Both the position numbers and the translations under genes were made by a program. From assembly GCA_017470055.1 (NCBI GenBank), contig JAFUFD010000059.1, positions 1-38,545 on the forward strand: DNA of 38,545 nt, given 5' to 3'. This document shows positions 1,834-8,381 of this stretch, piece by piece. This stretch comes from Prevotella sp. GTDB lineage: Bacteria; Bacteroidota; Bacteroidia; Bacteroidales; Bacteroidaceae. Numbering within the stretch: the first letter of the stretch is position 1; every line of letters begins with the position of its first letter. Below the pieces are notes generated by a model, which saw nothing but the letters and a program-made list of their open reading frames with translations, did not search any database and was not told the DNA's origin.

Positions 1834-4488
1834 ATGCAGAACGCACAGAACGCAGCAGAGATTCAGCAGAGAGTGATTAACCTCGTAGAACTTTACCGTA
1901 CTAAAGTGGGTAAGGAAAGTCAGATAGCTAAGGATGCCAAGGCGGATTGTGACTACTGGGATCAAGAGTCTATCAATTTGATGGATGAGAATGGCATAGG
2001 AGGTGGAATATATGGCGAAGGTCCTCATATCGAAGATTGGATAAAGCACCTGATGGTCAATGAACAGTTGCTTGGTCATTTCTATTCACTTGTTGCTGGA
2101 AAGGATGCTGAAAAAGAGATTCTTGACCAGTTACAGCCAGATGTCTATGATAAGACCATCTTTACCGAAGAAGAAGAGTTGTTCCTTACAGCCCATTTTA
2201 AGGATATGGTGAATTACATCATCCTTACTCCTTGTGATGATTCCCTTGAGTGGGTACATCGCCATGACGGCAAGGATGCTTATACCATTCCAAAGGAAGT
2301 GCTTGAACTCGTCAAAGCTCGGGTAGAGATTCCTATAGGTTCAACAGTGTATTATCCCCATACTGCATTTGCTCAATTAGCGAATCTGTTCGATGGGTGT
2401 AAGTATTATTGCGACACCATGTTTTATGCATGGACGAAAGTCGCCCTCTATGCCAACAATATAGATGCTGAGAACAATGCAAGGCCTACATCATACGATG
2501 CGATTGTGTCATATCTCCCAAAAGACGATGATGACAGCAAGGCAATTGCCCGTTTATGTGATGCATACAAGAATTTGCCAGTTGGTGGCAAATTTGTTCT
2601 GATTTGTCCGCCAAATGTTTTAGTGAACAAGGAGAATACTTTGTATAGAAGGACTCTTTCTGAAACATTGAAATATAAAGGACTACCTTCTGTTAAGGAA
2701 AAACTAGAAGAGGCATCCACAGACGTTAATGCTCAATTCAGGCGAATGCTTGTGGAGGACAAGGCTATTAAGGAGATAATCCAATTGCCCTCGGTAATGA
2801 GCAATAATGCGTCTTTCGACGCCTATTGTCTCCTGATTGCAGAGAAAGGAAGGATAAAATCAGACACTCTTCTCGTTGATGCTCGTGTGGCAAGTAATGA
2901 TTTTGATACAAAGCATTATATATTGTCATTCGACAATACCAAGTTCAATGCAATCTTGCAGAACGATGGTATTGATTCAAGTACGGGATTGAGAAAAGTG
3001 GTGAATGTATCCTCTGAGGATTTATCATCAGAGATTCTCATACCACAAGTATATGTGATAGAGAGACCTACAGAAACAGAACATCCTGTTCCTCTGTCGA
3101 TGTTATGCTCTTTGGCATCAACCAGAGTTCGTGATGTGCAATTTGATTTGCCAGAAGATACCCCATGGATAACCAAGAGTGACTTAACACCATTATACAC
3201 AGGTGATTTGGACATGTCTGTTATAAGAAAAGCAGATTGTCCTAACAATCCACCTTATGTTGAAGGTAGCAAAGAGTACGGATTTGATAAGGACGGCAAG
3301 TTCGTTGATTCCATTTGGTCACAGATAGGAAAGTCCAAAGGACATGATGTTTTGGAATATAGGAGATGTACCTATCTTGACGGCAACAGTGATGCTGTTC
3401 TCTATGAGCGATTTGCAGAGTCAGGAATTCAAATTGCTGTAGTTCGTGCGACAGGAAAACCTTATGCCGTAAGTAGCGGTATCTTTGTTTTCTGTCCTAA
3501 GGATGACTTTGATGCTAACTCGTTGGTAGCACTCTTGAGATTGCCTGTAGTGTATAGACAATTGATAGCATATCAAGAATATGGACTGGGCAATTACCTG
3601 AACGAGATACTTGTTCCTATGGATAAGCGCATTATTGGTGATGAACTCTATCGGATGAAGAGAGAAGAGGCTGTCACTAATGAGTTGGGAGAAAAAGTTC
3701 TGGTAATGAAGACCGAGTATATAAACGAGGTTCGGATGAGGAAACATGATATGCGTCCTCATATGAAGCAGTTGAATTCCTCAAAGAATTTGATGCAGCA
3801 CTATGTTGATAATATGTCTACAATAGATGATGTCCAGATTCATCTAAACCATCAACTCGCTCGATTCAGTGATGCGCTGGGACATCTTTCTGACATAATA
3901 GAGCATCTTAGTGATGAAGAGAAGTTTGGTAAACCTGAGCGATTCCCAATTATCGAACATCTACAAGAACTTATTACAGAATTTAATCGAAGTGGATACA
4001 ATATTTCTTTCAATTATAAAGAGGACGAGGCAAAGGAATATCTGAAAAACAAGATTGAGTATTTCTTGGATAATATTAAGGATTTCGAAACAGAAAAAGG
4101 AGAATATCCATTTCCAATACACTTCTCATATGCGCTAATAGCTCCATTGGATTTTGATCGGATGGTTCAAAATATAATAGAGAATGCTCGTACTCATGGA
4201 TTTATAGATGCATCTAAATCTGATTATAAAATTTGGATAAATCTTGATATAGATGAAAAGCGTGATATGTACCAGATTGATTTCTCAAATAACGGTATGC
4301 CTTTACCCGAAGGTATGACGAAAGCCCGTTATGGCATAAAAGGAGAGAAGGCTGGCAAACATGCAGGAACTGGCTCTGGCGGCTATATAGTGAAGTCCAT
4401 TGTTACCCACTATGGAGGTGACTATGACATTTTTTGTAAGAACGGAATAACAACTGTAAGAATATTATTACCGATAGTAACGATATGA
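1834..4488 (+). CDS. Hybrid histidine kinase with pseudo-HsdM methyltransferase sensor (884 aa)
   Basis: The C-terminal third is a histidine kinase: a phospho-acceptor helix around H638 (RKHDMRPHMKQL), then an HATPase_c domain with N box N780/N784 (NIIENARTHGF), G1 box near 816-823 (DFSNNGMP) and G2 box 845-850 (GTGSGG). Residues about 60-345 resemble the HsdM/N6-adenine methyltransferase fold, but both active motifs are lost: the SAM loop (usually DPxxGxG) reads YYPHTAF at 173-179, and the NPPY/F position reads SYLP at 226-229. Residues about 420-605 look like a target-recognition (HsdS-like) segment. There is no signal peptide or membrane segment, so it is probably a cytoplasmic sensor kinase reading DNA or a restriction-type ligand. 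Its stop overlaps the start of the response regulator (ATGA). The kinase call is firm; the methyltransferase-like call is moderate and the specificity segment tentative. Confidence 0.75.
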   Translation: MQNAQNAAEIQQRVINLVELYRTKVGKESQIAKDAKADCDYWDQESINLMDENGIGGGIYGEGPHIEDWIKHLMVNEQLLGHFYSLVAGKDAEKEILDQLQPDVYDKTIFTEEEELFLTAHFKDMVNYIILTPCDDSLEWVHRHDGKDAYTIPKEVLELVKARVEIPIGSTVYYPHTAFAQLANLFDGCKYYCDTMFYAWTKVALYANNIDAENNARPTSYDAIVSYLPKDDDDSKAIARLCDAYKNLPVGGKFVLICPPNVLVNKENTLYRRTLSETLKYKGLPSVKEKLEEASTDVNAQFRRMLVEDKAIKEIIQLPSVMSNNASFDAYCLLIAEKGRIKSDTLLVDARVASNDFDTKHYILSFDNTKFNAILQNDGIDSSTGLRKVVNVSSEDLSSEILIPQVYVIERPTETEHPVPLSMLCSLASTRVRDVQFDLPEDTPWITKSDLTPLYTGDLDMSVIRKADCPNNPPYVEGSKEYGFDKDGKFVDSIWSQIGKSKGHDVLEYRRCTYLDGNSDAVLYERFAESGIQIAVVRATGKPYAVSSGIFVFCPKDDFDANSLVALLRLPVVYRQLIAYQEYGLGNYLNEILVPMDKRIIGDELYRMKREEAVTNELGEKVLVMKTEYINEVRMRKHDMRPHMKQLNSSKNLMQHYVDNMSTIDDVQIHLNHQLARFSDALGHLSDIIEHLSDEEKFGKPERFPIIEHLQELITEFNRSGYNISFNYKEDEAKEYLKNKIEYFLDNIKDFETEKGEYPFPIHFSYALIAPLDFDRMVQNIIENARTHGFIDASKSDYKIWINLDIDEKRDMYQIDFSNNGMPLPEGMTKARYGIKGEKAGKHAGTGSGGYIVKSIVTHYGGDYDIFCKNGITTVRILLPIVTI

Positions 4489-5678
4489 ATACAAAGTATG
4501 AGGTCATCTGGATTGATGACGAATGGGAAAAGATGGATGCATTCAAAGAAGAATGTGAAGTGATTCATCAGATATATCTTCATCCGTTTCGGACTCAAAA
4601 GGCCGGAATGGATGAGTTTGATAAGAATCCCAAGAAATGGGATGCCATTATTCTTGATGCCAAAATGTTTGATGAGTCAGAGAATGAAGTGCCAAGATTG
4701 GATGGATTAAGGAAGGCAGTACAGCATATTAATGAAAAATCGTTGTTGTGCAAGGTTCCTTACTTTATTTCTACAGGTCAACCAGGTTTGATGGACAATG
4801 AGACTTTTGAACAGGCATTTGGTACTTATTACATCAAGGAGCGTGATGATCAAAAGCTCATTCAAGGCATAAAGGACGCTGCTGGCAAATCAACGAGGTT
4901 TCAAACTAAAACGTATTATATTGATGCTATAGAACAACTTGAATCTATTGATGCTTGGTGTTGTGATAAGATTCTTGACATATTGGAAGCAATGCATTTC
5001 CCTGAAAAGAATATTGATCCATTACTTTATTACAACCCCTTAAGGCAAACTTTAGAATATATCTTTAGGAAAGCAAATAAGGTCAACATCATACCCGATG
5101 AGTTTATTGGAAAAGACAAAGATGATGTCAACTTGAACCAGTGTGTACAGTTCCTTTCGGGTAGAAATGCTGATTGGATAGGGATTCGCTTTGGTGGAGC
5201 TAAAGACTTTGCCGTTCCTGCTCATATTAAGGATATGATGTTTCAAGTGCTAAATCTTGGCAATATCAATTCTCATTCACGGACGTTGAATGATGATGAA
5301 CTAAAGAAATTGGGTGCGTATTTCAAAGAAAATGTATGCAATTCTCATTATCTTATTTATAGTCTTGCACTGCAAATATGTGAAATAGCAGTCTTTATTG
5401 GAAAATATATAGCAGCCAATAAAGATACAGATAAGAATAGGACACAATGCAAAACATTTGGTATTGTGGAGAAGATTGAAGGAAATGATTCAATCTGCGT
5501 AATAAAAAGCAAAAGGCCTGGACGGGAATCATGCATCTGTATTTCCACAAAGTTTGCAATTAGTAAGGGAATAATTGACAAAAAGGTTGTTGTAATAGAC
5601 GAAAGTCCAAACACAAACAATACTACGAAAGTAGAATATCCATACTTTGCAATAAAAATAGAGCCTTTAGAGAAGTAA
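4485..5678 (+). CDS. Response regulator: receiver, helical domain and beta-rich tail (397 aa)
   Basis: Residues 1-130 are a receiver domain with all key residues: D11/D12 (WIDDE), phospho-acceptor D58 (IILDAK), S96/T97 (FISTG) and K118 (YYIKER). It overlaps the kinase gene by 4 bases and is surely its partner. No DNA-binding output domain follows. Residues about 145-305 are helical, with a pattern (LRQTLEYIFRKAN, then IKDMMFQVLNLGNINSHS) resembling DUF4145/HEPN-like domains, although no RxxxxxH nuclease motif is visible. Residues about 310-397 are beta-rich and could be an OB-like fold. The output may be protein or nucleic-acid binding rather than transcription. The output-domain assignments are inference. 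Confidence 0.7.
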   Translation: MNTKYEVIWIDDEWEKMDAFKEECEVIHQIYLHPFRTQKAGMDEFDKNPKKWDAIILDAKMFDESENEVPRLDGLRKAVQHINEKSLLCKVPYFISTGQPGLMDNETFEQAFGTYYIKERDDQKLIQGIKDAAGKSTRFQTKTYYIDAIEQLESIDAWCCDKILDILEAMHFPEKNIDPLLYYNPLRQTLEYIFRKANKVNIIPDEFIGKDKDDVNLNQCVQFLSGRNADWIGIRFGGAKDFAVPAHIKDMMFQVLNLGNINSHSRTLNDDELKKLGAYFKENVCNSHYLIYSLALQICEIAVFIGKYIAANKDTDKNRTQCKTFGIVEKIEGNDSICVIKSKRPGRESCICISTKFAISKGIIDKKVVVIDESPNTNNTTKVEYPYFAIKIEPLEK

Positions 5679-5822: not shown

Positions 5823-6278
5823 ATGAATACTATGACGAACACAGCACTTCAAGACATCGCAATCAGGGCTCTGCCAGCACTCTCAGGTGAGCAAGTGACC
5901 TACAACGCAGCAAAGAACGTATTCCTTTCGCAGGGATACACAAGTGCGGCAGGGAACATGTATTACAAGGCAATACGTCTGTCGAACAGGCTGGTGGTAT
6001 ACTACGATTTGGGGCAGGGATATCTTCACACCTTCCTGAACGGCATCAAACTGTTCTGCTTTGACGGTCAGAAGGCGAACCTCATCGCACAGAAGTACTG
6101 GGGTGGCTGTGACTACCGCATCTTCAACGAGCAGTTTGCCAAGGAGCAGAGCATTTTGATGCTGAAGGACTTCTTAGACGGTCAACTGAAGTTGGAGGGG
6201 GCACACGTCAGCGATCAAGAACTTTCCAGTTTCGCAAGAAACATGGTAGAGGAGACACATCGTAAGCAGTTAGTTTAA
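5823..6278 (+). CDS. Hypothetical protein (151 aa)
   Basis: I do not recognise a family. The protein is soluble, with no signal peptide or membrane segment. The N-terminal half mixes a helix (LQDIAIRALPAL) with a stretch rich in Tyr and Val (KAIRLSNRLVVYYDLGQGYL) that looks like paired beta strands; the C-terminal half is helical and charged. No metal or nucleotide motif is visible. The ATG at 5823 lies about 60 bases after the expected transcription start; an ATG at 5832 is an alternative. It is followed after 57 bases by the helicase gene with no promoter in between, so the two are probably co-transcribed and under the same dyad control as the kinase unit. Confidence 0.65.
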   Translation: MNTMTNTALQDIAIRALPALSGEQVTYNAAKNVFLSQGYTSAAGNMYYKAIRLSNRLVVYYDLGQGYLHTFLNGIKLFCFDGQKANLIAQKYWGGCDYRIFNEQFAKEQSILMLKDFLDGQLKLEGAHVSDQELSSFARNMVEETHRKQLV

Positions 6279-6335: not shown

Positions 6336-8381
6336 ATGGAGAACATGATTGACACACAGAACAAGCAGCAGGTAATGGCTTACGAACTGATTGCCAACAC
6401 CAACAGTAGTTTCTTCCTGACCGGTAGGGCAGGAACAGGTAAAACAACATTTTTGCGCAACGTGCAGAAGATGGTGGACAAAGAGTTTATTACTCTGGCA
6501 CCAACGGGGGTAGCAGCCATCCTTGCAGGTGGTGATACCATCCACTCATTTTTCGGACTGCCTATGGATGTCTGCTATCCTGGCACGATGGGTAAGATGA
6601 ACGAGGCACGTATTCAAACCTTGCTGCATACTGACACCATTATCATAGATGAGGTGTCGATGGTACGCTGTGACATCATTGATGCCATAGATTACACTAT
6701 GCGCAGGACTCTTCGTTCTACGCAGCCCTTTGGTGGTAAGCAGGTCATCTTTGTGGGTGATATGTTCCAGTTGCCACCAGTGGTAGCAAGGAAAGAGGAG
6801 CGAGAACTGATGCAAGACCTGTACCATGCGGATGACTGCTTCTTCTATAAGGCAGATGTCATCAAGCGGATGCGTTTGGTGAAGATTGAGTTCCAAAAGG
6901 TGTATCGTCAGGATGACTCCCATTTCCTCCAAATACTGGAGAATGTGCGACTCAACAAGGTGACACCAGAGGACTTGATGCATCTGAACAGACGTGTTTG
7001 CCAGCCTACCAAGGAGGACGGAATGGTAATTACGCTGGCTTCTCGTAATAGTACCGCAGATGCCCTGAATGAGGAGCGCCTTGCAGAGATTGATTCAGAG
7101 GAATACGTCTATGAGGGTACTGTACAGGGCAAGTTTGACGAGAAGCGTTTTCCTGTCGACAAGACCATGAAACTAAAAGTGGGTGCACAGGTGATGTTTA
7201 CCCGTAATGATCAGCATAAGCGATGGGCTAATGGTACGCTGGGCAAGGTGTCGAAACTTTCAAAAGATGAGGTACAGGTAACAATCAATTCTGGAGCGAC
7301 CTATGTCGTGCCTAATTGCTCATGGGACTCTGTGACCTATGAGTATGACAAAGAAGCGAAAAAACTGAAAAAGGAGGTGACAGGCACGTTTACCCAATAT
7401 CCTTTGAAGTTGGCATGGGCTATCACTGTGCATAAGAGTCAGGGCATGACATTTGAAAAGATGTCGCTTGATTTAAGCAAGGGCATGTTTGCGGCAGGAC
7501 AACTTTATGTGGCACTGAGCCGTGTGCAGTCTTTGGATGGTTTGTTTTTGTCGAAGGGTATCATCCCTCAGTATTGTCATACCAGTAGAGAGGTGTTGTT
7601 GTATGCCAATGGCTATAACGATGAGCAGGTAATCAGCAATGAGATAGAAAGTGGAAAGGCTGTCTATAAACTGCTGCACCATTATGACTATGATAACGCA
7701 GCCAAACAGTATCTGCTCTTAGTGCAAAAGAAGGCTGAGGCAGGGGACATCAAGGAGGCTATGCAGCAGGCTAAGCGATTTCTAGATACAGTCATCGATG
7801 ATGAAGAACTTTTTGGGTGTGTTGATGCGATTCCAGCAGAACTGATGGAAGCCAATCACTGGGCGCCCAAGTTCCTTGTTGCTCTGCTTAGTCTTTATGC
7901 AGGAAAATATGAACAGGGATTGGAGTATGTCAACAGTGTGCTATCGCAGCATCAGTGTCAGGAGGCACTCTACGTGAAGTCCCGCTGTCTTGCAAAACTC
8001 GAGCGATATGCTGAGACTGACGCTGTGAATGTGTTGATGGCAGAGAACTTTGACATGTCTACGCCAGATGCAAAGGTACTCTATATGATTGCCATGGTCA
8101 ACGAAATGCACGTCGGAGATTCAGGTCTGGCTTATATGCAGCAGTTGATAGCAGCAAGACCAAAGTACGACAAAGCCATTCTTGCGCTTCGTTATCTGAT
8201 GAGGCGTAAGGGGTTGGTACTGGTGAAGAGTTCTGACGAGAAGCGTGAGTTGGTGGATGACTTCAACTCAGATATGTCGAATAAGGAGTTTGCGGTGAAA
8301 CTGTCTGCTGCTCGGGAGAAAGCCCCCAAGTCAGTAGACTACCTTCGCCGACTCATCAAGAGACAGGAGTTCCAAGGATAA
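6336..8381 (+). CDS. Pif1-like SF1 DNA helicase with long C-terminal extension (681 aa)
   Basis: Superfamily 1B helicase of the Pif1/RecD2 type. Visible motifs: Walker A GRAGTGKTT (30-38), motif Ia LAPTGVAA, Walker B DEVSM (105-109), motif III GDMFQLPP (141-148), and the C-terminal UvrD_C_2-type motif WAITVHKSQGMTF (361-373) with YVALSRV (391-397). Such enzymes unwind DNA 5'-3' in an ATP-dependent way. Residues about 415-681 are an extra helical region whose repeated A/L/Y pattern suggests TPR-like repeats; this is unusual for a plain Pif1 and may be a protein-interaction module. Many Bacteroidota carry several Pif1-like helicases on mobile elements. It lies between the 151-aa gene and the winged-helix-like gene, with short gaps and no promoter. 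Confidence 0.85.
   Translation: MENMIDTQNKQQVMAYELIANTNSSFFLTGRAGTGKTTFLRNVQKMVDKEFITLAPTGVAAILAGGDTIHSFFGLPMDVCYPGTMGKMNEARIQTLLHTDTIIIDEVSMVRCDIIDAIDYTMRRTLRSTQPFGGKQVIFVGDMFQLPPVVARKEERELMQDLYHADDCFFYKADVIKRMRLVKIEFQKVYRQDDSHFLQILENVRLNKVTPEDLMHLNRRVCQPTKEDGMVITLASRNSTADALNEERLAEIDSEEYVYEGTVQGKFDEKRFPVDKTMKLKVGAQVMFTRNDQHKRWANGTLGKVSKLSKDEVQVTINSGATYVVPNCSWDSVTYEYDKEAKKLKKEVTGTFTQYPLKLAWAITVHKSQGMTFEKMSLDLSKGMFAAGQLYVALSRVQSLDGLFLSKGIIPQYCHTSREVLLYANGYNDEQVISNEIESGKAVYKLLHHYDYDNAAKQYLLLVQKKAEAGDIKEAMQQAKRFLDTVIDDEELFGCVDAIPAELMEANHWAPKFLVALLSLYAGKYEQGLEYVNSVLSQHQCQEALYVKSRCLAKLERYAETDAVNVLMAENFDMSTPDAKVLYMIAMVNEMHVGDSGLAYMQQLIAARPKYDKAILALRYLMRRKGLVLVKSSDEKRELVDDFNSDMSNKEFAVKLSAAREKAPKSVDYLRRLIKRQEFQG

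Follow-up and report, generated by a model that had tools for sequence, protein, structure and literature searches.

A 38,545-nucleotide stretch of DNA (the window), which is the entire contig (C69) of a draft genome from a Prevotella-like gut bacterium, carries two adjoining + strand genes encoding a sensor histidine kinase with a dead restriction-type methyltransferase as its input domain and a receiver partner, and we lean towards reading this pair as a soluble, defence-associated two-component switch in which a dead methylase clamp serves as the sensor. The kinase (884 amino acids, 1834-4488) is an open reading frame with two Pfam matches above cut-off, HATPase_c at residues 773-881 (E 3.7e-8) and N6_Mtase at residues 298-369 (21.2 bits against a cut-off of 20.4), while the open reading frame of the receiver (397 amino acids, 4485-5678), placed in a family alignment, starts within the kinase stop (ATGA). 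Alignment and the HATPase_c match place the H, N, G1 and G2 boxes in the kinase, and the cognate receiver beside it bears a phospho-acceptor aspartate, which upholds the assignment as a two-component pair made in a preliminary description of this locus. The observation of a dead-methylase kinase with a receiver is confirmed, and the interpretation then offered, namely a DNA-reading module turned into a sensor that controls a non-transcriptional effector, is partly supported. In a whole-collection scan with six exact peptides of the window kinase, its closest relatives (the window clade) were found in Prevotella and Prevotellaceae metagenome-assembled genomes.

By sequence profile, the input of the window kinase is homologous to type I methyltransferases. 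Profile-profile comparison of 12 window-clade kinases with ten HsdM proteins gave 97.2% probability and E 3.9e-11 over window residues 146-363 (2269-2922, + strand), and a profile of 17 kinases matched, in successive stretches, HsdM structures (EcoR124II M, a solved HsdM structure, 8.7e-31), an HsdS-like chain (Esub1, 8vsq, 8.8e-5) and histidine kinases (5c93, 2.7e-9). Among the ten window-clade kinases scanned with Pfam, N6_Mtase was above cut-off in those of the window and L062. Both catalytic motifs of this domain are lost in the window kinase, as had been proposed: the alignment of 26 kinases leaves YYPHTAF (residues 173-179, 2350-2370) at motif I and SYLP (residues 226-229, 2509-2520) at motif IV. 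Methyltransferase literature defines these motifs as DPxxG and [DNS]PP[FYW], respectively, and they were scored so in the 24 kinases that can be aligned over the methylase part (all 26 except L035 and L057). Homologues with intact motifs acting as plain methyltransferases, which by the preliminary description would have spoken against its reading, did not turn up: none of the 24 kinases keeps both motifs. By contrast, the free HsdM proteins encoded in kinase neighbourhoods have NPP[FY] in 10 of 10 cases and DPxxG in 9 of 10 (the exception being L036).

Loss of the motifs is uneven among the kinases. That of L058 retains motif I (DPVAGTGG) and has lost motif IV, that of L038 retains NPPW and has lost motif I, and L031 has DPFAG at motif I and QPLR at motif IV. 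The NPFAG found at motif I in four kinases is accompanied at motif IV by TPPF (L032 and L052) or NPPL (L040 and L054). Both sites are degenerate in four further window-clade kinases (L005, L062, L063 and L067), and motif loss is strongest in this clade, which is without restriction genes. The ratio of nonsynonymous to synonymous substitution rates (dN/dS), calculated by the Nei-Gojobori method for a single genome pair (window against L002), was 0.167 for the M domain, 0.123 for the specificity-like segment described below, 0.092 for the ATPase domain and 0.098 for the receiver gene. These values indicate purifying selection on every part, and the 0.167 shows that the dead methylase domain is not decaying.

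The M domain is followed by a specificity-like segment (residues ~421-594, 3094-3615, + strand) that is placed by alignment alone, at the position where Methylase_S matches fall in relatives, then by a spacer-like helix and the dimerization and histidine phosphotransfer (DHp) domain (residues 595-700, 3616-3933), with phospho-acceptor H638 at 3745-3747, and finally by the catalytic ATPase domain with its N, G1 and G2 boxes (residues 768-884, 4135-4485). N6_Mtase, Methylase_S and HATPase_c are all above the Pfam cut-off within single chains in L038, L039 and L058. After the specificity domain, several relatives (e.g. L032, L040 and L056) show a PPLxxQ-type helix start like that of HsdS, and in 24 kinases the phospho-histidine stands 39-51 residues after the aligned proline, 43 in the window kinase. 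The histidine itself is conserved in 26 of 26 aligned kinases. PADLOC models for specificity subunits match residues 381-565 of L039 and 428-625 of L056, reaching or passing H565 and H609, respectively. Because the DHp helices would stand in place of the HsdS coiled coil, the kinase dimer may form a clamp of the M2S type.

The receiver partner begins with a receiver domain (residues 1-144, 4485-4916, + strand) in which phospho-acceptor D58 lies at 4656-4658. It continues with a weakly DUF4145-like output domain with R187 and H264 invariant in the family alignment (residues 145-320, 4917-5444) and ends in a C-terminal segment that is beta-rich in model secondary structure (residues 321-397, 5445-5675). 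A Pfam scan of the window receiver gave no significant match, and its output contains no recognised DNA-binding domain, as the preliminary description had stated. In the structure model of the receiver, with a predicted local distance difference test (pLDDT) score of 68, convincing matches were found only to receiver folds, over residues ~1-144.

The link to defence comes from a survey of gene neighbourhoods, which covered 14 genome loci and one plasmid outside the window clade. In 10 of the 14 loci (L032, L036, L037, L038, L039, L052, L053, L054, L056 and L058), a further N6-methylase gene occurs no more than 10 kb from the pair, against 0.30 loci expected under random placement (P ~1e-14, with 2-6 other matches per genome), and this bears out the genomic association with defence suggested before. 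The L053 methylase is spread over two frames and 9.6 kb off, and an HsdR gene lies ~1.3 kb upstream of the kinase in that locus. The loci without such a gene within 10 kb are L031 (a 10-kb contig), L035, L055 and L057. Scans of neighbouring genes confirmed all eight HsdS and all five HsdR examined, and the receiver gene is directly followed by hsdM in L036-L040, L052, L054 and L056. The Myroides plasmid pFM-G13 presents the arrangement in one run: WYL, kinase, receiver, HsdM, HsdS, two other genes and HsdR, with the kinase annotated as an N-6 DNA methylase and the receiver as hypothetical. For 24 of 31 kinases, a WYL-like gene stands no more than 12 kb away, and in nine loci it is within 82 bases. 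Pfam confirms the WYL identity in L003 and L039, the annotation does so in L040, and the remaining genes were assigned by similarity to these. In L057 (605-12185), the pair sits within a type III CRISPR operon, with Cas10 and RAMP genes before it, Cas6 after it, and a Csx1-CARF match under cut-off also following the pair. An AAA ATPase follows the pair in L055, and a NACHT protein precedes it in L058.

Within the window clade, the pair usually lies between a WYL gene and a 151-amino-acid gene followed by a Pif1-like helicase, in a slot of changing content. In the window, the right border of the slot is formed by the 151-amino-acid gene (5823-6278, + strand), which matches in 10 of 80 genus genomes and also borders the slots of L062-L067; its product is without a Pfam match. 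The Pif1-like helicase gene (6336-8381, + strand; Pfam PIF1, 1.3e-33) flanks it on the right. No WYL gene was found in the window draft genome at E 1e-20, and the contig starts before any WYL position. To the left of the pair, a DUF3800 gene (256-1113, - strand; Pfam 3.5e-5) matches the PADLOC candidate defence family PDC-M04A (1.8e-15) and represents variable cargo of the slot. Elsewhere, the slot holds AbiLi/AbiLii genes together with two pairs (L004; PADLOC 8.8e-79 and 1.4e-16), a PDDEXK nuclease likewise accompanied by two pairs (L063), a helicase beside a single pair (L062), AbiEii genes in other genomes, or type III CRISPR genes with no pair (L064, with Cas10, Cas1 and RAMP confirmed, and L065, with RAMP confirmed). 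In L066 it is empty, the border genes being ~0.5 kb apart. No other N6_Mtase gene was found on the pair's contig in any of the seven window-clade genomes searched (G000, G060, G014, G063, G187, G034 and G083), some of whose contigs are short. Synonymous divergence (dS) between the window and L002 was 0.62 and 0.50 for the two genes of the pair, 1.01 for the 151-amino-acid gene and 2.47 (near saturation) for the helicase; since in this one comparison the pair is less diverged than its flanks, the values fit its transfer as a cassette. Three further features of these slots were observed. In L003 and L005, open reading frames that start very similarly to the window DUF3800 gene precede the pair; the window 151-amino-acid border gene and the 168-amino-acid gene that adjoins this border gene in relatives (L003, 14065-15072) are distant paralogues with ~25-30% identity; and a 2667-amino-acid open frame beside the pair in L062 (3679-11679) has an S1-domain protein on one side and a UvrD-like helicase on the other.

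For 30 of 30 kinases whose contig continues beyond the 3' end of the gene, the receiver gene stands next to it, a count that excludes L005, cut by its contig end, and includes L033, where the receiver gene is divided into two overlapping frames (3685-4939). Seven loci (L052-L058) were found via the receiver and the remaining ones via the kinase or flanking genes. Whole-genome searches covered Bacteroidota only, and at E 1e-10, with the own genome always counted, the kinase protein was found in 11 of 301 family genomes and 4 of 296 phylum genomes, and the receiver profile in 11 of 345 genomes (partly the same genomes as the 296). A phage-borne origin was considered and rejected, no relative of the pair being found in IMG/VR scans or phage records. 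The window kinase was also without a match in plasmid records, in which the receivers of L039, L056 and L054 each match only the same three Myroides records. More than 1700 plasmid-record matches were obtained with each of the L039 and L058 kinases; among the best 40 for L039, three Myroides records cover at least 80% and the others are partial and mostly methylases, and among the best 15 for L058 none covers 80%.

Recent copying of the operon's own HsdM or HsdS into the M or specificity part of the kinase is not supported by BLAST or by a tree. The operon's HsdM was the best BLAST match of the kinase in 0 of 10 loci and its HsdS in 1 of 9 (L037, E 0.06), and a quick tree separated 13 kinase M domains from ten HsdM by one branch (Shimodaira-Hasegawa-like approximate likelihood ratio test 88, with several long branches). 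The family also includes short kinases without a methylase part, each with a receiver gene after it, in L035 (8422-9798, - strand, 459 amino acids) and L063 (3863-5176, - strand, 438 amino acids), the former retaining a spacer-like start ahead of its H box. A chimera-like kinase in L029 (6555-10208, - strand) has an N-terminal part of the window type, with an H box and a receiver resembling those of L034 and of the second pair in L004.

We propose that the kinase dimer would form through DHp and that its two M-plus-specificity halves would make a clamp that resembles a type I enzyme's M2S core, the DHp helices taking over from the coiled-coil spacer of HsdS. Such a clamp could close on a ligand, which may be a DNA site, a modification state or a DNA-mimicking protein, and its closure would shift the spacer helix and lead to phosphorylation of H638. 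The phosphoryl group would then pass from H638 to D58, and the receiver output domain may engage a defence machine by protein contact. In relatives, the target machine would be the restriction or CRISPR enzyme encoded alongside, and in the window clade perhaps a variable cargo gene. A kinase that simply reads the same site as the resident methylase is not favoured, because the M domains are not copies of HsdM and the kinases show no preference for their own HsdS; the window locus, moreover, has no resident restriction genes.

Several results weigh against the switch with a methylase clamp. Outside the window clade, Methylase_S was found in 9 of 13 methylase-bearing kinases and was above cut-off in 5, and it was listed in none of the ten window-clade kinases scanned. 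A direct comparison of the window-clade profile with HsdS was negative, leaving the specificity segment undetectable in the window protein itself, so that the possible specificity-like segment noted earlier ahead of the kinase core is supported in relatives and not in the window kinase. The structure prediction of the whole window kinase (pLDDT 46.5) is unusable, and claims about fold are made without it. The sensor is not constant either, as the L057 kinase has no detectable methylase and its HATPase_c match (18.6 bits) is under the cut-off of 26.4. In addition, a PADLOC-DB 2.0.0 scan matched neither the window kinase nor its receiver, and there are no restriction genes beside the window pair. 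On the output side, five of the 18 receivers scanned matched DUF4145 weakly (best E 0.0076), that of the window not among them, the comparison of the receiver output profile with four DUF4145 sequences was weak, and the C-terminal half of the receiver model yielded no convincing fold match.

A specific form of the sensor reading is an integrated decoy, in which the dead clamp would be bait for DNA-mimic anti-restriction proteins (Ocr- or ArdA-like) of phage or plasmid, and binding of the inhibitor, not of DNA, would activate the kinase for a second-line response. Type I enzymes are inhibited by ArdA, ArdB and Ocr, according to the accessible text of PMC10149784, and dead catalysis in a protein otherwise under purifying selection, the association with type I operons that such inhibitors target, and the lack of preference for the own-operon HsdS would all suit a decoy. 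However, the same signs are expected from an ordinary DNA sensor, and the window locus has nothing of the restriction kind to guard. We regard the decoy as rather unlikely; sequence alone does not separate the two versions. The wider proposal, that a dead type I restriction core joined to a histidine kinase would be bait either for anti-restriction proteins with which phages mimic DNA or for phage DNA lacking modification, turning the disabling of restriction into a phosphorelay alarm that could be connected to effectors of the restriction, type III CRISPR or abortive-infection kind, is put forward tentatively, as possible if unlikely.

Alternatively, the pair could tune the resident type I enzyme, through HsdR joining or expression, and raise no alarm against invaders. 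The loci in which hsdM directly follows the receiver gene would agree with such a controller, and because the HsdR of L052 also begins with DUF4145 (5.4e-7), HsdR and the receiver might be rivals for a single docking site. The controller is nevertheless doubtful given that all seven window-clade genomes searched lack a methylase gene near the pair, that 4 of the 14 loci from elsewhere have none within 10 kb and that one pair sits in a CRISPR operon. It is more improbable still that the methylase part is a leftover scaffold from a fusion and that the kinase senses something unrelated, e.g. via its N-terminal helices or an insertion in the specificity segment; motif loss being strongest where restriction genes are absent, and the existence of methylase-free kinases (L035, the second pair of L063, and L057), would fit a vestigial input, but an M domain dN/dS of 0.167, near that of the kinase core (0.09-0.10), would not. 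An ordinary active DNA methyltransferase with an additional ATPase domain is barely credible: the annotation of the Myroides member and the single motifs kept by L038 and L058 point that way, whereas the failure of any of the 24 kinases to keep both motifs, against NPP[FY] in 10 of 10 adjacent free HsdM, points away.

The defence-associated switch that we favour has partial counterparts among known systems. Compared with the type I core (HsdM and HsdS), the kinases have a homologous M domain, joined in relatives by a specificity domain and a spacer start that are also homologous, but have lost the catalytic motifs, carry one specificity domain instead of two and have gained a kinase. In Detocs, whose proteins are DtcA, DtcB and DtcC, a histidine kinase and a receiver are used in defence, as proposed for this pair; its sensor and receiver output are different from those of the window pair. 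A published likeness is that of the HEF_HK (PF19191) and Response_reg_2 (PF19192) pairs, which the accessible text of PMC8011034 links to restriction-modification: soluble kinase-like and receiver-like genes adjoin each other (91.6% of 644 regions) near restriction-modification genes. These differ in having an HATPase_c_3 (paraMORC-like) sensor and mainly type II neighbours with C5-cytosine methylases (same text, PMC8011034), whereas the window-type pairs have a dead type I methylase sensor and type I neighbours. PF19191, PF19192 (both models assumed to be in the Pfam copy used) and an N-terminal HATPase_c_3 found no match in the kinases, nor in 18 receivers at E ≤ 10. WYL proteins of the BrxR/CapW type are regulators of defence loci, with type I restriction in 34 of 210 BrxR-associated systems, and recall the WYL genes near 24 of 31 kinases; they are, however, transcription regulators, and no kinase-receiver pair is described with them in the accessible text (PMC9122601). 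Schlafen RNases fused to a minimal histidine kinase (accessible text of PMC12839542) are a different protein. Among the matches listed from open-licence PMC text, no description of a methylase-kinase fusion was found.

The published restriction-linked kinase-receiver pair has another sensor (HEF_HK; PMC8011034, accessible text), and a dead restriction methylase as kinase input, accompanied in relatives by a specificity domain, would open direct access to the sensing and switching of restriction and CRISPR loci in the course of infection. The filing of the Myroides member as an N-6 DNA methylase is a warning for annotation. The proposed working makes testable predictions concerning the ligand of the clamp, transfer from H638 to D58 and the target of the receiver. 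Relatives of the pair sit in DNA-restriction and CRISPR immune clusters, a placement that points to a new means by which bacteria could detect attack.

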